Source of the DNA: Actinomycetota bacterium | Lineage (GTDB): Bacteria; Actinomycetota; Thermoleophilia; Gaiellales; Gaiellaceae | Length of the DNA: 36,792 nt | NCBI GenBank assembly: GCA_013697275.1 | Contig: JACCXC010000095.1 | Span: forward strand, 1-36,792 | Direction of reading: 5' to 3' | Shown: piece after piece, positions 13,771 through 36,792 of the stretch | How the letters are laid out: each line of letters opens with the position of its first letter | How positions within the stretch are numbered: position 1 is the stretch's first letter | Position numbers and translations under genes: made by a program | The notes under the pieces: model-generated | Seen by the model: only the letters and a program-made list of their open reading frames with translations | What the model was told of the DNA's origin: nothing | Database searches by the model: none

Positions 13771-15083
13771 CCAGCGCGCGCTACGTCGCCGAGGCGGTCG
13801 TCACCTGCGACGAGTCGGGGACGGTTCACGAGCCGGGCGCGGTCGAGGTCGAGGGCGCCCGGATCACGTGGGTCGGCCCGGCCGAGGGTGCCCCGCCGCC
13901 TGCCGAGGGGACGGCGGAGACTCGGCTCCCGGGTCTCCTCATGCCCGGGTTCGTCGACGTGCACTGCCACACACCGATGACGCTCTTCCGAGGGGCGAGC
14001 GAGGACGTCGCCCTCGACCGCTTCCTGCGCGAAATCCTCTGGCCCCGCGAGGCGAAGCTCACCGACGACGACGTCTTCTGGGGAATGACGCTCGGCTGTG
14101 CCGAGCATCTGCGCGGTGGCACGACGACGACCTGCGAGATGTACGTGTTCGAGGACGCGATCGTCGAGGCGGTGCGGGCGGCGGGCAGCCGCTGCGTCCT
14201 CACCCCGGGGGTGATCGAGGCACCCGGCTGGGACTACATCGGCCCGTGGAGCGAGCGGCTCGACGCCGTCCTCTCGTTCCGCGACCACCTGGGCGACAGC
14301 GCGGAGACGATCGAGGTCGGGATCGCGGCGCACGCCGCCTACACGCTTCCTCTCGAGGCGCTCGAAGCGATTGGGGCCGCAGCGCACGAGCGCGGCGCGC
14401 TCGTCCACATCCACGTCGCCGAGACCGAAGGGGAGGGCCGCGAACTCGAGGAGCAGCACGGAAAGAGCGTGCCGGCCCTCCTCGGCGAACTCGGGTTTCT
14501 CGACGGTCGCGTCCTCGCCGCGCACGGGGTGTGGTTGACGGAGGACGACCGGCGGCTCTTCGCCGAGCGCGACGTGGCGGTCGCGCACTGCCCGACCGCG
14601 AATGCGAAGCTCGCCTCGGGGATCGCGCCGCTCGCCGACCTGCGCCGGCGTGGGATCCGCGTCGGCCTCGGAACCGACAGCCCGGCTGCGAATAACGACT
14701 TCGACATGTGGGAGGAGCTGCGGCTCGCCGCCTTCTTCGCGCGAGCAACGACGCTCGACCCCGAGGTCTTGCCTGCCGGCGAGGTGCTCGCGCTCGCGAC
14801 GCGTGGCGGGGCGGAGGCACTCGGGCGCGACGATCTGGGCGTCCTCGCGCCCGATAAGGCGGCCGACTTCGTCCACGTGCGCACCGACGACGCGGCGTTC
14901 GTCCCGCGCGTCGAGGAGCGGGATCTCGTCTCCCATCTCGTCTGGGCGGGGACGAGCCGGCACGTGGCCGACGTCTGGGTCGCAGGCGTGCAGGTCGTCG
15001 AGGATGGGCGCTGCACGACCGTGGACGTGGAGCGCGCTCGAGCCGAGGTGCAGGAGCGCGCGACGAGGGTCGCGCGCTCGTAG
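13767..15083 (+). CDS. MTA/SAH deaminase-type amidohydrolase
   Basis: Metal-dependent amidohydrolase of the TM0936/DadD type, which deaminates methylthioadenosine, SAH or 5'-deoxyadenosine to inosine forms. About 438 aa. Metal motifs are HCH (about residues 66-68, GFVDVHCHTPMTLFRG), VHIHVAETEGE, AAHGVWL and GTDSPAANND. No ATG, GTG or TTG lies in frame near the expected N-terminus. GGGAGG at 13754-13759 points to GTA 13767, which overlaps the upstream TAG stop. A CTG at 13752 is the other option. The substrate is inferred from family and from the two AhcY-like neighbours; guanine-, cytosine- or chlorohydrolase activities are not excluded. Confidence 0.82.
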   Translation, partial: VASARYVAEAVVTCDESGTVHEPGAVEVEGARITWVGPAEGAPPPAEGTAETRLPGLLMPGFVDVHCHTPMTLFRGASEDVALDRFLREILWPREAKLTDDDVFWGMTLGCAEHLRGGTTTTCEMYVFEDAIVEAVRAAGSRCVLTPGVIEAPGWDYIGPWSERLDAVLSFRDHLGDSAETIEVGIAAHAAYTLPLEALEAIGAAAHERGALVHIHVAETEGEGRELEEQHGKSVPALLGELGFLDGRVLAAHGVWLTEDDRRLFAERDVAVAHCPTANAKLASGIAPLADLRRRGIRVGLGTDSPAANNDFDMWEELRLAAFFARATTLDPEVLPAGEVLALATRGGAEALGRDDLGVLAPDKAADFVHVRTDDAAFVPRVEERDLVSHLVWAGTSRHVADVWVAGVQVVEDGRCTTVDVERARAEVQERATRVARS

Positions 15084-27923: not shown

Positions 27924-28011
27924 GCGCGCCGCCTCCCGGGGCGTATCGTCTCCCGCGGCGCTCGCGCACTGCGGCCGAGGGCCTCGTCGAGGTGCGACGA
28001 AGGAGGCTGCG

Positions 28012-28749
28012 ATGGCCAGGACCTATACCAGGGAGAGTCTCGGGCGCGAGCTGGCCCGGGCGCAGGCGCGCGGCTGGGAGGCGTGCTGCGTCGAGGCCGA
28101 GCGGCGTGTAGACCTGCCTCGCGCCCTCCTGCTCGCGATCGCGTCGCGCGAGACCGACATGGACGACGTCGTCGGCGACGGAGGCCACGGCCGTGGCCTC
28201 TTCCAGATCGACGACCGCTCGCACCGCACGTTCCTACTCGAGCACGGCGCAGGCGGGACGGATGGGAAGCCGCCGGTGCGCGATGCGGCTCGCTATGCCG
28301 CCCAGCTCGTGCGCGACAACCTGGAGTTCGCGCGCCGCAAGGGCGTCTCCGAGCCCGAGCGGCTGAAGTTCGCCCTCTCCGCCTACAACGCCGGCCCGGG
28401 GAACGCGCACGCCGGCTGGCAGGCGGGCGACTCGGACGCGCGCACGACGGGCGCCGACTACGGCCGCGACGTCCTGCGCCGCCACGAGCACTTCCGCGCG
28501 CTGGTCAACGGCGGCCCGACCAGCGCGCTCGAGCGCGGGTCACGGGGCGGGCGGGTCGAGGAGCTGAAGGGCAAGCTCGCCGATTGGTACGGGCGAAACG
28601 CGCCCGGTGAGTTCGAGCGGTTCGGTGTCAAGCCGGGGCCGGTTTTCGGCGCCGCGCTCGAGCAGGCCGTCCTCGACTTCCAGCGCCGGAAAGGCCTCAA
28701 GGTCGATGGAGTCGTCGGCCCGAAGACGCTCGCCGCCCTCGAGCGCTAG
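28012..28749 (+). CDS. Lysozyme/transglycosylase-like protein with PG-binding domain
   Basis: 245 aa. A lysozyme-like domain (residues 1-160) has the catalytic Glu47 in IASRETDM, then GHGRGLFQID and ALSAYNAGPGNA, all typical of goose-type/SLT muramidases. A C-terminal PG_binding_1 domain (about 175-245) ends DFQRRKGLKVDGVVGPKTLAAL. No signal peptide is present, as in phage endolysins, although no other phage gene is near. ATG 28012 has a strong GAAGGAGG ribosome-binding site. It is convergent with endonuclease IV, with seven bases between the stops. Confidence 0.88.
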   Translation: MARTYTRESLGRELARAQARGWEACCVEAERRVDLPRALLLAIASRETDMDDVVGDGGHGRGLFQIDDRSHRTFLLEHGAGGTDGKPPVRDAARYAAQLVRDNLEFARRKGVSEPERLKFALSAYNAGPGNAHAGWQAGDSDARTTGADYGRDVLRRHEHFRALVNGGPTSALERGSRGGRVEELKGKLADWYGRNAPGEFERFGVKPGPVFGAALEQAVLDFQRRKGLKVDGVVGPKTLAALER

Positions 28750-28756
28750 GCCCGCC

Positions 28757-29617
28757 TCAGGCGGCCGCGACCAGGGAGCGGGCGTGAAGCTCGCGGAGCC
28801 TCGTAACTTCCTCCGCATCGGGGCCGCGCCCGTCTCGTCCGGGAACCTCGAGCACGGTCGGGAGGCCCTGGAGGCTCGGGTGGGCGAGGAAGACGCCGAG
28901 CCCCTCCCCGAGCTCGCCTTCGCCGATGTTCGCGTGCCGGTCTCGGTTCGAGCCGAGCGAGTCGCGCGCGTCGTTCACATGCAACGCGCGCAGCCGGTCG
29001 AGGCCGATGGTCTCGTCGACCTCGGTCACGGTCGCGTCGAGCGCCTCCGGATCGGTCACGTCCACACCCGAGACCCAGAGGTGGCATGAGTCCAGGCAGA
29101 TCCCCAGGCGTGGATGGCGGCCGAGCCGCTCGACGACGACGGCGAGCTCCTCGACGGAGCGGCCGATCGTCCCGCCCGCACCGGCCGAGTTCTCGACGAG
29201 GAGCCAGGTCGTCTCGCTACAGCGCTCGAGCGCCAGCTCGAGCGCGGGAAGGGCGCGCTCCAGGCCGGCTTCGAACCCGGCCCCGAGGTGGGAGCCGATG
29301 TGGAAGACGACGCCGTCGGCCTCGACCGCGCGGGCGACTTCCATGGTGTTCAGGAGCGCCGCGACGGACTTCCCTTGGAGCTCGTCATCGGGGGATGCCA
29401 GGTTCACGAGGTAGATCGCGTGGCAGAGGACAGCCTGGATCCCGGCCTCCGCGCGTCGCTCGCGGAAGCGCTCGAAATTCGCGGGGTCATGGTTCGTGGG
29501 ACGCCAGGCACGAGGGCTTTGCGTGAAGAACTGTACGGAGTCGGCGCCGAAGGACTCGGCCCGGTCGACCGCCGTTTGGATCCCCCCCGAGCACGACACG
29601 TGGGCGCCGGCTAGCAC
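28757..29617 (-). CDS. nfo: Endonuclease IV (AP endonuclease)
   Basis: Zn-dependent AP endonuclease cutting 5' of abasic sites in base-excision repair. 286 aa. The TIM-barrel metal ligands are in family blocks: LAGAHVSCSGG, HAIYLVNLASPD, VVFHIGSHLGAG, LLVENSAGAGGTIG, ICLDSCHLWVSG, HVNDARDSLGSNRDRHANIGEG and VLEVPG. GTG 29617 begins nine bases after the stop of the AlkZ-like gene. The pair therefore looks like a repair operon, with a possible internal -10 for nfo. Confidence 0.95.
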   Translation of the reverse strand: MLAGAHVSCSGGIQTAVDRAESFGADSVQFFTQSPRAWRPTNHDPANFERFRERRAEAGIQAVLCHAIYLVNLASPDDELQGKSVAALLNTMEVARAVEADGVVFHIGSHLGAGFEAGLERALPALELALERCSETTWLLVENSAGAGGTIGRSVEELAVVVERLGRHPRLGICLDSCHLWVSGVDVTDPEALDATVTEVDETIGLDRLRALHVNDARDSLGSNRDRHANIGEGELGEGLGVFLAHPSLQGLPTVLEVPGRDGRGPDAEEVTRLRELHARSLVAAA

Positions 29618-29623
29618 GCCGCC

Positions 29624-29629
29624 ACGCTA
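29624..29629 (-). promoter_or_regulatory. Possible internal -10 box before nfo
   Basis: TAGCGT on the minus strand followed by six bases and then GTG. The box overlaps the stop codon of the AlkZ-like gene. The distance is exactly that of a leaderless start, so nfo may also be made alone. Confidence 0.4.
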
Positions 29630-30667
29630 ACGGAGGAACGTCTGGAGACGGCGAGCCTCGTCCTCGAGCTCCCGCCGCGCTCGCAGCGGAAGGGGATCGA
29701 ACTGCTCGACGACAACGCGTTCCCGCTCGACGCGCCACAGGCCGGCCACGAACCCGTCGACGAGGATGGTCTGCGCCACGTCCCCGCCGACGGCGATGAC
29801 GCTCGAGCGGAGATCGTCCGGGAGGATGCGCGCGCGCCGGTCGTAGGCGAGGAGCGCTTCCTCCCAGCGTGGGAGGAAGCGCACTGGCGCAGGCTCCGTT
29901 CCCTCGGCGAGGGGGGCGCGGGGGAGATCGAGAAGGGCGCGGCCGGCCTCGTCCTCGAACGTGCGCAGGCGAAGCGACTCGAGCGCGGGGTCGAGATCGC
30001 GAAGAGGGACGCGGCTCCAGGCTGCAAGATCTGTCCGCGAGGCGGGCCCGTAGGCGCCGAGGTAGCGGCGGACGAGGTGCACCCGTCCTTCCGCCGGATC
30101 CGGGAGTGCAAGGTCGACGCGCCGAAACGGAGTCACTCGCGGAGGCGACCAGAAGGCCGCCTCGGGTGCCTGCTCGAGCTGGGCCAGCGCGAGGAGCCAG
30201 TGCAGCTCCCGGAACGGCCGGGCGTCGACCGCAGCCGAGAGCGGCGCGTCGTGGCCGAGGAGCGCCAGGAGCTCGCGCCGCGTCACCGGGCCCGCCCGAG
30301 CGAGCTCGACGGCGCGGCGCACGGCCTCATCGGACGGCGGCTCGACGCCGCGGGCGCGCATCCCTACGACCGCCTCGCGGACCGCCGCGGCGAAGAACCG
30401 ATAGTCGCGGGCGCTGACGAGATGGAGCGTCGCCCGCATGAGTGTCCCCTTGAGCACGGCGTCGCGCGCAAGCGCCTTCTCGAGCTGCTCCCGCCTGAAG
30501 CCCTCGAGACGCGACCAGAGGGCGACGTACGGCGACGGAGCCCACTGCGCCTGGAGGCCCGCCAGGCGCTCGAGCGCCGGGACGACTCGCAGCCGGGCGC
30601 GCTTCAGCAAGAGCTGGCGGAGCAGGGTCGTGCGGTTCAGCTCGCGGAGCGTCAGGACGCGCGGCAT
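29627..30667 (-). CDS. Winged-helix DNA glycosylase, AlkZ/YcaQ (HTH_42) family
   Basis: 346 aa. Matches the HTH_42 winged-helix family, whose studied members remove bulky alkylated bases or unhook interstrand cross-links. The catalytic QxQ motif is present as LQAQ (Gln39, Gln41) followed by the usual PYVALWSRLEGF. Other family features are GTLMRATLHLVSARDY, the winged-helix repeats around AYGPASRTDLAAWS, and the C-terminal ILVDGFVAGLWR. The next gene is AP endonuclease, which would process the abasic sites it leaves. ATG 30667 is divergent from gltX with a shared, overlapping -10 region. Damage specificity is not predictable. Confidence 0.88.
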   Translation of the reverse strand: MPRVLTLRELNRTTLLRQLLLKRARLRVVPALERLAGLQAQWAPSPYVALWSRLEGFRREQLEKALARDAVLKGTLMRATLHLVSARDYRFFAAAVREAVVGMRARGVEPPSDEAVRRAVELARAGPVTRRELLALLGHDAPLSAAVDARPFRELHWLLALAQLEQAPEAAFWSPPRVTPFRRVDLALPDPAEGRVHLVRRYLGAYGPASRTDLAAWSRVPLRDLDPALESLRLRTFEDEAGRALLDLPRAPLAEGTEPAPVRFLPRWEEALLAYDRRARILPDDLRSSVIAVGGDVAQTILVDGFVAGLWRVERERVVVEQFDPLPLRARRELEDEARRLQTFLR

Positions 30668-30675
30668 CGCGCGAG

Positions 30676-30682
30676 TACGCTA
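30676..30682. promoter_or_regulatory. Overlapping divergent -10 boxes of gltX and alkZ-like gene
   Basis: The seven bases TACGCTA read as TACGCT on the plus strand, six bases before gltX GTG, and as TAGCGT on the minus strand, nine bases before the alkZ-like ATG. Two RNA polymerases could not open both at once, so the genes may compete. The total gap between the start codons is only 20 bp. Confidence 0.5.
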
Positions 30683-30687
30683 GACGC

Positions 30688-31956
30688 GTGGCCGTCAGAG
30701 TCCGCTTCGCGCCGAGCCCGACGGGCTTTCTGCACATCGGAGGCGTTCGAACCGCGCTTTTCAACTGGCTCTTCGCGCGTCACGAGAACGGCGAGGTCCT
30801 CCTCCGGATCGAGAACACGGATCACTCCCGCGAGGTCGAGGAGGCCGTCGAGCAGATCCGACGCTCGCTCGTTTGGCTCGGGCTCGACTGGGACGGCGAG
30901 GTCGCCTTCCAGCTCGACCGGCTCGAGCGCCACCAGGAGCTCGCCCGCGGGCTCGTCGCGGAAGGGAATGCCTACGAGGACGATGGTGCGATCCGCTTCC
31001 GGATGCCCGACGAGGGGACGACGGCGTGGGACGACGTCGTGCGCGGTCGCATCGAATTCCCGAACGAGAAGCTCGAGGATCTCGTCCTCCTGCGCTCGGA
31101 CGGTCGCCCGACCTACAACTTCGCCTCCCCTGCCGACGACATGGACGACGGGATCACCCACGTCGTCCGCGGCGAGGATCACGTCTCGAACACGCCCAAG
31201 CAGATCCGGATCCTCGAGGCGCTCGGCGCCGCCCTCCCTGCCTACGCGCACCTCCCGAACGTCCTCGGTGAGGACGGTCGCAAGCTCTCGAAACGCCACG
31301 GCGCCGTTTCGGTCGAGGAGTTCCGCGCGCAGGGCTACCTGCCCGAGGCCCTCATGAACTACCTGGCTCTCCTCGGCTGGAGCCTCGACGAGAAGACGAC
31401 CGTCATCCCGCCGGAGGAGCTCGTGCGCACCTTCTCGCTCGAGCGGGTCGGGGCGAGCGCGGCCACGTTCGACTACGCCAAGCTCGCGTGGCTGAATGGG
31501 GTCTACCTCCGCAGCCTGGCGCCGGAGGCATACGCGGACCGCCTGGTCGCCTACCTGCGTGAGACCGGCTTCGAGGGGGACGAGGAGACGATCCGGGCAG
31601 CGGCGCCGCTCGTCCAGGAGAAGGTCCCGAAGCTCGGGGAGTTCGCGTCGTTTGCAGGCTTCCTCTTCGCGCGCTCGGAACCGGATGCCGAGGGGCTCGA
31701 TGGAGGGAGACCCGTGCTCGCCGCGGCGCGAGACGCGCTGGCCGGCCTGGAGCCCTTCACTGCCGAGGCGGTGGAGGGGGCGCTCCGCGAGGCGGCGGAG
31801 CGGCTCGGTCTCAAGCCGCGCCAGGCCTTCGCCCCGATTCGCCTCGCCGTGACCGGATCGAAGGTCTCGCCCGGGCTCTTCGAGTCGATTGCGCTCCTCG
31901 GTCGCGACGAGACGCTCGCGCGGCTCGAGCTCAGCGCCGGTTCTGAGCCGGCGTAA
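30688..31956 (+). CDS. gltX: Glutamyl-tRNA synthetase
   Basis: Class I synthetase charging tRNA-Glu. 422 aa, shorter than the common 470-490 aa bacterial form, mainly in the anticodon-binding C-terminus. HIGH-type motif PSPTGFLHIGG (His16), the RIENTDHSREVEEA loop, GEDHVSNTPKQI, and KMSKS-type KLSKRHG (about 199-205) are all present. GTG 30688 lies at leaderless distance from TACGCT. A tRNA-Glu gene is 2.2 kb away. Whether it is discriminating, or also charges tRNA-Gln, cannot be told here. Confidence 0.95.
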   Translation: MAVRVRFAPSPTGFLHIGGVRTALFNWLFARHENGEVLLRIENTDHSREVEEAVEQIRRSLVWLGLDWDGEVAFQLDRLERHQELARGLVAEGNAYEDDGAIRFRMPDEGTTAWDDVVRGRIEFPNEKLEDLVLLRSDGRPTYNFASPADDMDDGITHVVRGEDHVSNTPKQIRILEALGAALPAYAHLPNVLGEDGRKLSKRHGAVSVEEFRAQGYLPEALMNYLALLGWSLDEKTTVIPPEELVRTFSLERVGASAATFDYAKLAWLNGVYLRSLAPEAYADRLVAYLRETGFEGDEETIRAAAPLVQEKVPKLGEFASFAGFLFARSEPDAEGLDGGRPVLAAARDALAGLEPFTAEAVEGALREAAERLGLKPRQAFAPIRLAVTGSKVSPGLFESIALLGRDETLARLELSAGSEPA

Positions 31957-32107
31957 AGCCGCGGGCCCGGCTCGCGAGGTGGCGGTCAAGCGCCTCCTCG
32001 AACGTCTTCCGGGCCCGGTGGCGAAACGCCCCGGAGGGCCTGGGAAGGAGCCCAAGCAGCGCTGTCCGTAATTGAAGGGCCACGTCGTCCCTATGCTCGC
32101 TGACCAT
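31931..32107 (-). CDS. Possible small protein antisense to the gltX 3' end
   Basis: 58 codons from ATG 32107, preceded by GGGGGA. The predicted product begins MVSEHRDDVALQLRTALLG and continues RHRARKTFEEALDRHLASRARGF, basic and largely helical. It overlaps the last 26 bases of gltX tail to tail and lies 66 bp downstream of the 201-aa gene on the same strand. Codon third positions are mostly G or C. Too short to be sure; it could be chance in GC-rich DNA. The remaining gap to 32173 shows nothing else. Confidence 0.35.
   Translation of the reverse strand: MVSEHRDDVALQLRTALLGLLPRPSGAFRHRARKTFEEALDRHLASRARGFTPAQNRR
31945..31973 (+). terminator. Possible gltX terminator hairpin
   Basis: GAGCCGG (31945-31951) pairs with CCGGCTC (31967-31973) across the stop codon; a competing stem is AGCCG/CGGCT (31957-31972). 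No T tract follows. It overlaps the antisense small ORF. Confidence 0.35.
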
Positions 32108-32173
32108 TTCCCCCGGTCCGCCGCTCGCGCGGCAATGGTGTACGCGGGGTAAACGGTGAAGCGCGGGGGGAGG

Positions 32174-32779
32174 TTACGGGCGAAAGAGGAGAAAGCCGCC
32201 GGCGAAGAGCGCGAGGCCGGCTGCCCAGAGCGGCCACGCCGCCAGCACCGCGCCTGCGGTGAAGAGCAGCGCGCCGGCCACGACCAGTGCAGTCGCCGCA
32301 ACTGCAATCCGGACGAGGTGTATCTCAGCGACGTCCTTCCCCGTCGGTTCCTCACCGGGCTCCGCATCGGGCAAACGAAGCGGCGAGCGCTCGAGCGCGC
32401 GCAGGCGCGCCAGCCGCACGCGGAACAGAGCTCCTCGCCACTCGGGTAGGAGCCGGTCGACAAGCTCGTTGTCGTCGTCCTCGAGCGCCCCGACGATCTC
32501 CGAGGTCGCGTCGCGGGCCTGGCCGAGGGCAGAGACGAGCTCCGCGTGAACGGCACGCGCGTCCGTCGGCGGCCAGATGCCATGGGCGAGCTCAGCCGCC
32601 GCATGCAAGCTGTACTGGAGCGATGGGAGCTCGTCACGGGCCTCGGGCGGGATCCAGCCGCCCGGCGCCTCCGCGACTCGCTCCAGCCGGACGAGCGCGA
32701 CGCCGAGCCGCTCCCACAGGTGGGCGACGGCCGAGGCGTAGTCCCCCCGCCGCACGCCCGCGCGGACGGCTCGTTCCAT
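32174..32779 (-). CDS. Hypothetical protein with C-terminal membrane hairpin
   Basis: 201 aa. A soluble, mostly helical acidic N-terminal region (residues 1-150) contains WERLGVALVRLERV and LVDRLLPEWRGALFRVRLARL. Two closely spaced C-terminal membrane segments follow (VRIAVAATALVVAGALLFTAG; PLWAAGLALFAGGFLLF). I do not recognise it. Topology suggests a tail-anchored cytoplasmic domain. ATG 32779 stands eight bases after TATCAT, divergent from the receiver-domain gene, so the two could be co-regulated. Confidence 0.72.
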   Translation of the reverse strand: MERAVRAGVRRGDYASAVAHLWERLGVALVRLERVAEAPGGWIPPEARDELPSLQYSLHAAAELAHGIWPPTDARAVHAELVSALGQARDATSEIVGALEDDDNELVDRLLPEWRGALFRVRLARLRALERSPLRLPDAEPGEEPTGKDVAEIHLVRIAVAATALVVAGALLFTAGAVLAAWPLWAAGLALFAGGFLLFRP

Positions 32780-32787
32780 CGGCCGCG

Positions 32788-32807
32788 ATGATACCCCTGG
32801 CTACACT
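32788..32807. promoter_or_regulatory. Paired divergent -10 boxes
   Basis: TATCAT on the minus strand (32788-32793) serves the 201-aa gene at eight bases from its ATG. TACACT on the plus strand (32802-32807) serves the receiver-domain gene at exactly six bases from its ATG. Start codons are only 34 bp apart, and both mRNAs would be leaderless or nearly so. Confidence 0.55.
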
Positions 32808-32813
32808 CGCGGA

Positions 32814-33176
32814 ATGGGCGGTCAGCGAGCTGCCACCATCCTCGTCGCCGACGACGATCCCGCCATTCGCCTTCTCTGCAGGGTGAACCTCGAGCTCGAG
32901 GGCTACCGCGTGATCGAGGCCGGTAGTGCGGCGGAGCTCGACGAGGTCCTCGCGCGCGACGAGATCTCCGCTCTTCTGCTGGACGTCCGCCTCGGCGACG
33001 ATGACGGACGTGTGGTTGCCCGGCGCCTCGGCGAGGAGCGTCCCGAGCTTCCGATCGCGTTCTTCACGGGCAGCGTCTCACTGGACGACGTGCGGAACCT
33101 CGTGGACGGCGTGATCCCGAAGCCGTTCACGCTCGAGGAGCTGAGCGCGACCGTGCGGCGGCTGGCTCCCCTGTAG
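32814..33176 (+). CDS. Stand-alone receiver domain (CheY-like)
   Basis: 120 aa, receiver domain only with no output domain. The acidic pocket is in LVADDDPA, the phosphoacceptor is Asp57 in LLLDVRLGDDDG, the switch Thr is in FFTGS and the conserved Lys is in IPKPF. Such proteins act through protein contacts or phosphotransfer. No histidine kinase is in the window. The last 50 bases overlap the end of the convergent UPF0104-type gene. Confidence 0.92.
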   Translation: MGGQRAATILVADDDPAIRLLCRVNLELEGYRVIEAGSAAELDEVLARDEISALLLDVRLGDDDGRVVARRLGEERPELPIAFFTGSVSLDDVRNLVDGVIPKPFTLEELSATVRRLAPL

Positions 33177-34113
33177 ACATCCCTTCGTCGGGGCGGACGT
33201 GGTCTCGCCAGCGCACGGTCCCGAGCATCAACGCGAGTGCGGCGAACCCGATGAGGACGTTGACCGCGACCGTCGCGAGCTGCATGCCGATGCTGAAGGA
33301 GAGGACGGCGCTCCCCGAGGCCCAGCCTGCGAGCGCGAACACCAGCACCGCTTGTTGAGTCCCGGCGCCGCCGGGCGTGAAGGGGAGCGTCGTCGCGAGC
33401 CCACCTACGACGAGCACGGCGAGCACCGTGTCGAACGTCGCCGGGATGTTGAAGGCGCGCAGGAAGAAGAAGACCGACGCGATCCGGAAGACCCACGAGA
33501 GCGCCTGCCACGAGACCACTCGGCGGGCGAAGGCGCGCGCGTCTCCGAGCACGACGAAGCCCTGCATCACCTTCTCGCGGAAAGCGACGACGTGCTGTGT
33601 GGCCCACGCGGCGAGCAGGATCCCCGCAGCGACGAGAGCCGAGAGGAAGAGAGCCGCGACCCGCGGATGCTCGACGGCGAACGACCAGTCGAACGCGGGG
33701 ATCCTGGGGAGGTCGGGCAGCCCGGGGAGGAGCCCCTGCTGGAGCGCGACGAGAAGAAGGAGCGACGCGAGGGCGAAGTCGAAGAGCGTCTCGACGACGA
33801 GCGTGGATCCGAGCGTCGGGTAGGAGGAACCGTCGATCCGCTGCCGGGCCAGGTAGACCTTGACGAGGTCGCCGCCACGCGCGGGCGTGATCGCGTTCAC
33901 CCCGACGCCGGCCCAGTAGGCCCCGAGGACACTCCGGAACGGCACCCGCGAGCCGGGGTAGGTTGCCCGGAGAATGTTCTGCCACGCCCGCACCCGCGCG
34001 CCCAGGCGCACGAGGTGGCAGGCGATCGCGAGGGCCAGGGTTCCGAGGCCGACCGCGGCGAGATGGCGGCCGAACGCCTCGAAGGCGTCGAGGAAGGACC
34101 GAACGTCTTCCAC
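33127..34113 (-). CDS. UPF0104 / lysylphosphatidylglycerol synthase-type membrane protein
   Basis: 328 aa, about eight membrane segments. Family motifs are GAYWAGVGVNAITPARGGDLVK, the ETLFDFALASLLLL helix and TLPFTPGGAGTQQA. This is the flippase-like membrane half of MprF-type proteins without the lysyl-transferase domain, so a lipid or polyprenol flipping role is inferred, not shown. GTG 34113 was chosen because TATCGT lies seven bases upstream. The longer frame to 34227 runs through the tRNA gene and must be wrong. It overlaps the receiver gene tail to tail by 50 bp. Confidence 0.85.
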   Translation of the reverse strand: MEDVRSFLDAFEAFGRHLAAVGLGTLALAIACHLVRLGARVRAWQNILRATYPGSRVPFRSVLGAYWAGVGVNAITPARGGDLVKVYLARQRIDGSSYPTLGSTLVVETLFDFALASLLLLVALQQGLLPGLPDLPRIPAFDWSFAVEHPRVAALFLSALVAAGILLAAWATQHVVAFREKVMQGFVVLGDARAFARRVVSWQALSWVFRIASVFFFLRAFNIPATFDTVLAVLVVGGLATTLPFTPGGAGTQQAVLVFALAGWASGSAVLSFSIGMQLATVAVNVLIGFAALALMLGTVRWRDHVRPDEGMSTGEPAAARSRSAPRA

Positions 34114-34120
34114 CCGACTG

Positions 34121-34126
34121 ACGATA
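34121..34126 (-). promoter_or_regulatory. -10 box for the UPF0104 gene
   Basis: TATCGT on the minus strand followed by seven bases and GTG 34113. It lies between the tRNA-Glu 3' end and the gene, so the gene need not depend on the tRNA promoter. Confidence 0.5.
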
Positions 34127-34178
34127 GCCCCGGGCCCCGCGGCCCGCCACGGCTTACCAGGACTGGGGCGTGCGGCGA

Positions 34179-34251
34179 TACCCCCTACCGGATTCGAACC
34201 GGTGTCACCGCCGTGAGAGGGCGGCATCCTAGGCCACTAGACGAAGGGGGC
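34179..34251 (-). tRNA. tRNA-Glu (anticodon CUC)
   Basis: 73 nt on the minus strand. The acceptor arm GCCCCCT pairs with AGGGGGT (a G-U at the first pair), with discriminator A and no encoded CCA. The D loop has AGTGGCCTAGGA. The anticodon stem is CCGCC/GGCGG with loop CTCTCAC, so the anticodon is CUC and it reads GAG. The T arm is CCGG-TTCGAAT-CCGG. gltX, which charges it, is 2.2 kb away. Confidence 0.96.
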
Positions 34252-34260
34252 GCGGGCCTC

Positions 34261-34266
34261 AGGGTA
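34261..34266 (-). promoter_or_regulatory. Candidate -10 box for tRNA-Glu
   Basis: TACCCT on the minus strand, nine bases before the mature tRNA 5' end. No clear -35 is present. Confidence 0.4.
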
Positions 34267-34320
34267 GCCGATCGCAAACGGCGCCCGCCCTGACGATTTG
34301 CGGCCTCGGGCGCGAGGCAG

Positions 34321-34400
34321 TAGGGTCGCAACCGCCGGTCATGTACCTCCGGGTGCAAGGGGAGCGAACGGCCACGCGGCTCGCGTGGCCGTTCGCTTTT
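34321..34400 (+). ncRNA. Candidate small RNA or leader ending in a perfect intrinsic terminator
   Basis: AGCGAACGGCCACGCG (34363-34378) pairs perfectly with its complement at 34382-34397 around a three-base loop, followed by TTTT and, after a few bases, TTTTTT. No plus-strand gene lies upstream; the neighbour on the left is the tRNA gene on the other strand. TAGGGT at 34321-34326 could start a transcript near 34333, giving an RNA of about 68 nt, with CTCC/GGAG arms able to form a small hairpin before the terminator. It may be a free small RNA, or an attenuator for the secreted-protein genes that follow. I did not recognise any known riboswitch. Confidence 0.6.
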
Positions 34401-34470
34401 CATCAGCTTTTTTGCTTCTGAGCGGGAATGTCGAACGATCGCGGTCCCCAGCCCATCGGAGGTCACGTAC

Positions 34471-34861
34471 ATGCGAGGGCTCTTCCGTCTGCGAGGGCTC
34501 TTCCGTCTCTTGCTTCCGCTCGGGCTCTTGGCCGCGCTCGTGCTCCCGCCGACGGCCGCGGCGGTGCACAACCTCGACCAGCACAGCCTGAACAGGACCA
34601 AGCTCTTCGCGTCGCCGAACACGTCCGGCGCGGGAGGCACAAGCGCGACGAACTCACGCGATCGGCGACGTTGACGCGCTCCAGACGAGCGACCCCGCGA
34701 CGTTCCAGGACGACGTGAGGGAGATCGTGGGCACCGCGGACCGGCGGCTGAACTCGTGGCCGAGCCCATTCGACACGATGCTCGAGAAGCACGGCGGCGT
34801 CGAACTGAGGGAGGCCTATGACGGCCCTCCCGCATGTCAGACCTTCGCCCGCGGCGGCTAG
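34471..34861 (+). pseudogene. Frameshifted small secreted protein
   Basis: ATG 34471 follows GGAGGT and starts a signal peptide (LLLPLGLLAALVLPPTAAA) and a mature start AVHNLDQHSLNRTKLF like that of the LVIVD protein downstream (AVHNADKHSANTSLVF). The frame hits TGA at 34672-34674. In the next frame, coding sequence with very high GC3 carries on from about 34655 to TAG 34861 (AIGDVDALQTSDPATFQDD through AYDGPPACQTFARGG). One extra base near 34651-34660 would explain this. An 18-bp tandem duplication lies in the signal peptide (34474-34509). It could be a real mutation or an assembly error. The rest of the gap to 34875 is empty. Confidence 0.7.
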
Positions 34862-34875
34862 CGGCACCCGCGCTC

Positions 34876-34904
34876 TAGACCTGCACGCACCCATGCTTTA
34901 CGAT
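34876..34904 (+). promoter_or_regulatory. Promoter for the LVIVD-repeat protein
   Basis: TAGACC (34876-34881), a 17-nt spacer and TACGAT (34899-34904). Transcription from about 34911 gives a 28-nt leader carrying GGGAGG at 34925-34930, eight bases before ATG 34939. Confidence 0.55.
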
Positions 34905-34938
34905 CGGCGCCCCTTATTCCACTCGGGAGGTACTGCAC

Positions 34939-36765
34939 ATGCGACGGCTTTCCCGCTTCCTCATACCACTCGGCGTGTTGGCGGCGTTCGCCTTTCCCTC
35001 GGCGGCTATGGCTGTCCACAATGCGGACAAGCACAGCGCGAACACCTCGCTGGTTTTCAGCGCGGTGAACGGCACCAACGCCATCAACTCGGATATCGCG
35101 TTCTGGGGCAACCGCGCCTACTACGGCGACTACGACGGCTTCCGGATCTTCGACATCTCGAATCCGGCCTCGCCGGTGCTGCTCCGCGACTTCGACTGTC
35201 GCGGCCCACAGAACGACCCGGCCGTGTGGGGGAACCTGCTGTTCCTCGCGATTGACCGCACGCAGACAGGACCGAACTGCGGCTCGACTAACACGGCGGC
35301 ACACGACGATCCGAACGGGTGGGAGGGCGTCAGGATCTTCAACGTCTCCAACCCGGCGGCTCCAGTGCAGGTCGGTGCCGTGTACACGGACTGCGGAGCC
35401 CACACCATCACGGTCAACCCGGTCAGTGTCGGAACGATCCACCTGTGGGTTTCGTCCTATCCGCTTCGCCCCGGACCCACCTGCGGGCCGGTTCGCGGGC
35501 CGGCGGCGGGCCGCCATCCGCATCATGGCGTGATCCAGATCATCGAGGTCCCGCTCGCGAACCCGAGCGCGGCCCGCGAGATCGCCGAGCCCCCGATTAC
35601 GTATCCGGGCGACCCGGACAACGCGTTCAACCCGGCCGAGCACGACTTGGCGGGGTTCCTCACGCTGCGGGCGTGCCACGACATCGCGATCAACGTCCCG
35701 CTCCGGCTGGCCGCCGCCGCCTGCGCCGAGCAGGCGCAGCTGTGGCGAATCGGCGCGAACGGGATCCCCGACACGGCGAACCCCGTCTGGACCGTCGACG
35801 ACACGACCGACACCGACGGAGCCGGCGGCGGCGACGTCGCGGTCGACTTCTGGCACTCGGCGACGTTCAGCTGGGACGGCAAGTTGGTCAACTTCATCGA
35901 CGAGTCGTTCGGAAGCGGCTGCCCGACCGTGACGCCGGTCGGGCTCGGCGCGGCTGCGAAGCCGAGCGACACGGGTCGAATGTTCTTCGTGAACACCGCG
36001 ACCGGCGCGTTCCTGAGCCGCTTCACGCTTCCGAGACCCGAGACCTCGCCGATCGTCGACTACTGCTCGGCGCATCTCGGGAACACCGTCCCGTCGATCG
36101 GCAAGTACCTCCTGGTCAACGCCTGGTACACGGGCGGGATCGACGTGATCGACTTCACGAACCCGTCGAGCCCGCTGGAGGTCGCGTACTACGACGTGGC
36201 CGACCGCGACAACCCCGCCCCGCAGCCGGATGTCCTCGGTGGCGACAACTGGTCGGCGTACTGGTACGAGAACACGGCTGGGGACGACGACAACCTGTGG
36301 CTCTTCGCAACCGACGGCGTCGAAAATCCGCCGAGCGGCGAGGGAGCTCAGGTCTATCGGACGTCGATGGCGGTCGAAGACGTCGGCCTGAGACGGCTCA
36401 ATCCGCAGACGCAGGAGGACCTGATCCGATGCCGGGCCACGGTCTCGCCGGGCAACCTCCGCGCCCGCGAGGCTAGGTCGGTCAACGTCCGCGTCAGCGT
36501 CGTACCCGGTGTTTCGCTCCTACCCGGGCAGATGGTTGGGAACGTCCCGGTCCGGCTCCGCGGCCCGGGCGTCTCGATCGAGACGTTCACGAACGCAAAT
36601 GGCGTGGCGCGAGTATCCGGCGTGGCGCCGACGAGGAAGGGAACGCTTCGGGCCACCGTCCGGAGCCTCCCGAACCTGATCGGCTGCCTAGGGACGGCAC
36701 GGATCCGTGCTCCGCGGGCCGGCGTTGCCGCCGGCGGCGCGGGTCTCACCGGTAGGCCCAGCTAG
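34939..36765 (+). CDS. Secreted LVIVD-repeat protein with C-terminal Ig-like domain
   Basis: 608 aa. A signal peptide (residues 1-25, cleavage near SAAMA-VHN) is followed by a beta-propeller-like region with LVIVD-type repeats: GFRIFDISNPASPV, GVRIFNVSNPAAPV and GIDVIDFTNPSSPL. From about residue 505 a beta-sandwich-like domain begins (RCRATVSPGNLRAREARSV, VPVRLRGPGVSIETFTNANG), resembling bacterial Ig-like folds. No sorting signal or membrane anchor is seen at the end, so it is probably released or wall-associated. LVIVD proteins have no settled function. Leader and signal peptide match the frameshifted gene upstream. Confidence 0.88.
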   Translation: MRRLSRFLIPLGVLAAFAFPSAAMAVHNADKHSANTSLVFSAVNGTNAINSDIAFWGNRAYYGDYDGFRIFDISNPASPVLLRDFDCRGPQNDPAVWGNLLFLAIDRTQTGPNCGSTNTAAHDDPNGWEGVRIFNVSNPAAPVQVGAVYTDCGAHTITVNPVSVGTIHLWVSSYPLRPGPTCGPVRGPAAGRHPHHGVIQIIEVPLANPSAAREIAEPPITYPGDPDNAFNPAEHDLAGFLTLRACHDIAINVPLRLAAAACAEQAQLWRIGANGIPDTANPVWTVDDTTDTDGAGGGDVAVDFWHSATFSWDGKLVNFIDESFGSGCPTVTPVGLGAAAKPSDTGRMFFVNTATGAFLSRFTLPRPETSPIVDYCSAHLGNTVPSIGKYLLVNAWYTGGIDVIDFTNPSSPLEVAYYDVADRDNPAPQPDVLGGDNWSAYWYENTAGDDDNLWLFATDGVENPPSGEGAQVYRTSMAVEDVGLRRLNPQTQEDLIRCRATVSPGNLRAREARSVNVRVSVVPGVSLLPGQMVGNVPVRLRGPGVSIETFTNANGVARVSGVAPTRKGTLRATVRSLPNLIGCLGTARIRAPRAGVAAGGAGLTGRPS

Positions 36766-36781
36766 AGAGAGGGACGTGGCG

Positions 36782-36792
36782 CCCCCCCCCCC
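36782..36792. other. C homopolymer at the window end
   Basis: Eleven C bases in a row end the window, 16 bases after the last stop codon. This looks like a contig end or sequencing artefact rather than a biological feature. Confidence 0.6.

Follow-up and report, generated by a model that had tools for sequence, protein, structure and literature searches.

A perfect 16-bp hairpin at 34363-34397, lying between a divergent tRNA-Glu (CTC) gene and a decayed copy of a gene for a secreted LVIVD-repeat protein, has the form of a transcription terminator and is not preceded by a gene. The feature is ordinary, its place unusual. Judged from its sequence, it appears to be an intrinsic-type terminator such as commonly ends genes in this actinobacterial family and would stop transcription in vivo, and it was probably stranded here by the loss or rearrangement of the gene that it once ended. 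The window, meaning the whole stretch of 36,792 nucleotides analysed, is the entire contig C148 of a 2.19-Mb genome in 226 contigs (about 94% complete). The features relevant to the hairpin are as follows.

30688-31956, plus strand: gltX
32814-33176, plus strand: response regulator
about 33127-34113, minus strand: membrane protein of the LPG-synthase-TM family (Pfam PF03706), called "flippase" here as our own shorthand
34179-34251, minus strand: tRNA-Glu (CTC), from ARAGORN and Rfam RF00005, transcribed away from the hairpin
34261-34266, minus strand: -10 box TACCCT of tRNA-Glu, matrix score 11.6
34298-34326, plus strand: weak putative promoter TTGCGG-17-TAGGGT, proposed in an earlier note, -10 score about -1
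34363-34397, plus strand: candidate terminator hairpin, perfect 16-bp stem with loop GCT, from hairpin search and RNA fold
34398-34413, plus strand: broken T tract TTT CATCAGC TTTTTT, from the sequence
34471-34863, plus strand: decayed short copy of an LVIVD secreted-protein gene, from sequence comparison
34899-34904, plus strand: -10-like TACGAT of the intact LVIVD gene, 3' of the hairpin, matrix score 6.4
34939-36765, plus strand: intact secreted LVIVD-repeat protein, 608 aa (Pfam PF08309)

A perfect stem with a broken T tract

The arms of the stem (34363-34378 and 34382-34397) form 16 of 16 Watson-Crick pairs around the three-nucleotide loop GCT, just as an earlier note on this DNA had described. 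The RNA fold of 34360-34402 reaches -34.9 kcal/mol (z -8.1), giving the stable, GC-rich hairpin by which intrinsic terminators are recognised. The same note had called it the best terminator in the window, and it is indeed the longest gapless hairpin there, with runners-up of 13 bp at 29854, inside a coding sequence, and 11 bp at 15054. No longer perfect hairpin occurs in 564,048 sampled bases of the genome, and among 150 surrogate windows generated by a first-order Markov model, one reached 16 bp. The former runner-up is a second perfect palindrome (29854-29882, 13 bp with a 3-nt loop) within the minus-strand gene 29627-30667.

On its 3' side the stem is followed by TTTCATCAGCTTTTTT. The T tract is moderate: TTT abuts the stem and TTTTTT follows at 34408-34413, so the tract reported earlier is present, but it is interrupted by CATCAGC. 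Of this stem, a simple consensus scan picked up no more than a 6-bp core. On the minus strand the stem is followed by CCCCTTGCAC, and T-assisted termination, if any, would therefore serve transcription of the plus strand. The hairpin thus resembles a Rho-independent terminator in its GC-rich stem, short loop and T-rich 3' side on one strand; it differs in that its T run is broken after three bases and no gene lies upstream. The last plus-strand gene before it ends at 33176, with the minus-strand flippase gene and tRNA-Glu in between, which bears out the earlier observation that no plus-strand gene ends at the terminator. No stop codon or RNA end precedes it within about 60 nt, and its likeness to a gene-end terminator is one of shape only.

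Gene-end hairpins in the family and a probable stranded terminator

Hairpin terminators mostly lie within 80 bases of a stop codon, according to a survey of 13 genomes (PMC8355165), and mycobacterial terminators without a poly-U tail are described within 50 bp of stop codons in a review (PMC12288462). To see where such hairpins stand here, we used a 564-kb sample of the same genome, comprising the window and 40 stretches picked by contig number and earlier matches rather than at random, with a home-made gene caller that misses short genes. It contains 18 perfect hairpins of at least 11 bp, five in genes, one at an edge and 12 intergenic; eight of these 12 follow a called stop by 60 nt or less; the other four, 34363-34397 among them, do not. 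The hairpin studied here is the sole one of the 12 in divergent space, which makes up about a sixth of intergenic space.

The relatives give a similar picture, in 526 kb of loci that overweight LVIVD genes because tRNA-Glu, LVIVD and flippase genes served as the anchors for retrieving them. Among 40 perfect hairpins of at least 11 bp, 28 are intergenic; a stop or the end of a tRNA precedes 21 of the 28 by at most 60 nt, and one is divergent. That one, beside the flippase gene in G006, starts 18 nt after a 64-codon minus-strand ORF which, by eye, looks like the tail or a fragment of a larger gene. At least five T in the eight nucleotides after the stem, on either strand, were found for one of the 28. 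This habit of perfect stems just 3' of stops recalls the 'I-shaped' terminators without poly-U described for mycobacteria in the review (PMC12288462), from which the hairpin in the window differs by having some T tail and no nearby stop.

LVIVD genes follow the habit closely. A hairpin of at least 9 bp stands 10-85 nt after the stop in 16 of the 19 LVIVD genes called in 16 loci, the exceptions being single genes in G002 (L191), G007 (L198) and the G034 array (L188). The paralogue on contig C43 of the same genome has a 13-bp hairpin 24 nt after its stop, and G034 has a tandem LVIVD array whose paralogues are separated by hairpins. We had also considered hairpins near LVIVD genes as upstream elements and rejected the idea, as they proved to be 3' once the loci were turned to gene orientation. 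At L188 9831-9856 in G034, 237 nt ahead of the first LVIVD gene, lies a hairpin with almost the sequence of those between the genes, and no gene is called for 1.2 kb; the hairpin is perhaps another stranded terminator, a parallel case.

The LVIVD copy next to the hairpin in the window is decaying. A signal peptide and about 50 residues can be aligned before the frame closes, and the copy carries an 18-nt in-frame tandem duplication (34472-34507). A second open frame in the region (34631-34861) has no Pfam match and no relative in 40 other genomes. The three loci in named genomes closest to the window's LVIVD protein belong to two MAGs of Thermoleophilaceae and one of Actinomycetota.

Directly observed are the hairpin, its isolated position, the usual place of such hairpins at gene ends and the decay of the adjacent LVIVD copy. 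A hairpin of the gene-end type, without a gene, adjoins a decaying copy of a family that in one relative, G034, forms a tandem array with hairpins between its members; a stranded terminator is the simplest reading. The gene in front of the hairpin would have been lost or moved as the stretch was rearranged beside tRNA-Glu, leaving the terminator behind; that gene may have been an upstream LVIVD paralogue, or another gene. We found no remnant of it: the 111 nt that separate the tRNA from the hairpin show no homology to anything found. At present the hairpin would at most halt stray plus-strand transcription from the tRNA side before the secreted-protein genes, perhaps insulating the LVIVD gene from it.

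The genes around the hairpin stand in a rearranged order. tRNA-Gln(CTG), a neighbour of tRNA-Glu in nine of 28 relatives, is on a different contig here. gltX, the response regulator and the flippase gene occur together in G023, and gltX and the flippase gene in G002 and G006, in all three cases without a tRNA-Glu adjoining the flippase gene. In G014 and G020 tRNA-Glu and a flippase homologue lie a few kb apart, with the tRNA 3' of the gene, as opposed to 5' in the window. The tRNA-Glu/flippase junction in the window is thus a local arrangement.

Candidate promoters and a possible small RNA

The earlier note had read the hairpin as the end of a small RNA or as an attenuator; the terminator without a gene before it stands, while neither role is borne out. 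A small RNA confined to this lineage, some 68 nt long from a start near 34333 to its end at the hairpin, is unlikely, though it has points in its favour. The TAGGGT box said to lie 36 nt before the stem is there, at 34321-34326, and TTGCGG (34298-34303) precedes it at the good spacing of 17 nt. The 68-nt segment also folds stably (z -6.0), owing mostly to the hairpin, and orphan terminators are an accepted cue in small-RNA searches (PMC2573895). Our case shares with those predictions a terminator that cannot be assigned to a flanking coding sequence, but it lacks a convincing promoter and conservation.

To score candidate promoters, we built a -10 matrix from the sequences 5' of tRNA genes in this genome. 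Of 30 such regions, 28 had TANNNT 3-18 nt before the tRNA; the two without it, both tRNA-Leu, were dropped. The resulting consensus of tRNA-gene -10 boxes is GCTANNNT (28 sites), and the training sites score 6.7-15.3, values that are partly circular because site selection presupposes the TANNNT motif. TAGGGT is a poor -10 box by this measure: its score of about -1 falls under all 28 training sites, and a score of this size occurs on average every 54 nt of strand. Sites matching GCTANNNT at leaderless spacing occur just 5' of the response regulator (32799-32814, plus strand, 12.2) and just 5' of the flippase gene (34113-34129, minus strand, 7.0), so the matrix is not confined to tRNA genes. The site 5' of the decayed LVIVD copy, AACGAT at 34434-34439, is degenerate, and a simple consensus scan of 28000-36792 returned no sigma-70 promoter. 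The segment 34298-34326 may still serve a sigma factor of another class.

Conservation gives the small RNA no help. A query of 34160-34480 matched 54 of 60 relatives, at the tRNA and its immediate edge only. With 34256-34936 as query, 16 of 102 other family genomes gave short matches, all beyond the hairpin and in or after the decayed copy; the hairpin and its leader matched none of the 102, none of which is congeneric. Local alignment scores against eight relatives lie in the range of shuffled sequences, the best being equalled by 35 of 300 shuffles. In Rfam the tRNA alone reaches a gathering score in the region; matches of the palindrome at lax thresholds (miRNA families, asX1, ncS035 and others) fall far below it and are attributable to chance. 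Among the papers searched, none deals with a small RNA and terminator in Thermoleophilia. Absent conservation does not argue the RNA away, because it could be lineage-specific. A young RNA of about 68 nt, in which a promoter divergent to tRNA-Glu became joined to the stranded terminator, is decidedly unlikely. In general, a terminator without a gene is by itself little reason to expect a small RNA here, because long perfect hairpins of this family mark gene ends and seemingly outlast the loss of their genes. The GCTANNNT consensus and the hairpin habit 3' of LVIVD genes may in turn aid annotation of other genomes in the group.

Flanks of tRNA-Glu and the remaining alternatives

Unlike most comparable hairpins, the one studied here has a T tract, if a partial one, and it may equally well have belonged to a stable RNA. 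It is nevertheless very unlikely that it ended a small transcription unit once holding such an RNA, for example tRNA-Gln(CTG), since deleted. tRNA-Gln(CTG) is divergent from tRNA-Glu in G005 (94 nt) and G024 (70 nt), with a hairpin after it in G005, and some tRNAs of this genome are followed by T-tailed hairpins. Against this, tRNA-Gln(CTG) is present elsewhere in the genome, on contig C114, and a good -10 box is no longer present. It lies at most 2.5 kb 5' of tRNA-Glu in nine of 28 relatives surveyed, several with flanks shorter than 2.5 kb, and of these nine, seven have the two on the same strand and two divergent.

The 5' flank of tRNA-Glu varies in almost every relative. An intergenic hairpin of at least 9 bp occurs within 400 nt 5' of tRNA-Glu in three of the 28 (G034, G012 and G006), and a conserved hairpin at this place was rejected as the sequences and positions differ among relatives; a 13-base match to the hairpin of G012 (E 0.53) is within chance. 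Two other stretches 5' of tRNA-Glu are shared by pairs of relatives. In G012 (L025) and G006 (L029), about 50 nt are similar across two genera beside a hairpin terminator (CATGCTGGCGGTCA.TCCCCGAGCCGCAGGAGGA); the stretch matches nothing in Rfam at gathering score and is perhaps a short leader ORF or an RNA. In G034 (L013) and G002 (L026), about 260 nt of intergenic sequence, including two hairpins, are kept across two congeneric species.

The dyad is perfect and stable on both strands, as would suit a DNA palindrome acting as an operator or other protein site rather than as an RNA element. We regard this as highly improbable: the arms are 16 bp long with a 3-nt spacer, the T-rich side is on one flank only, and a genome search allowing up to three mismatches found no further copy. 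With this single copy, and no second one of the surrounding stretch in the genome, a repeat or mobile element was likewise rejected.

That the hairpin belongs to a leader of the secreted-protein genes and acts there as an attenuator is barely plausible: it lies 73 nt 5' of the start codon of the decayed copy and a 26-codon ORF at 34341 (no Pfam match) passes through it, but that ORF crosses the terminator instead of stopping before it, the minimum-energy fold has no competing hairpin, hairpins of at least 9 bp close before the starts of the 19 LVIVD genes are all terminators of the preceding gene, bar the one in G034 at 237 nt, and the intact LVIVD gene has its own good, promoter-like -10 site below the hairpin. 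Directly 3' of the stop of that intact gene, the last letters of the contig are a run of C (36780-36792), at a place where LVIVD genes of the family usually have a hairpin; the assembly perhaps broke at one.
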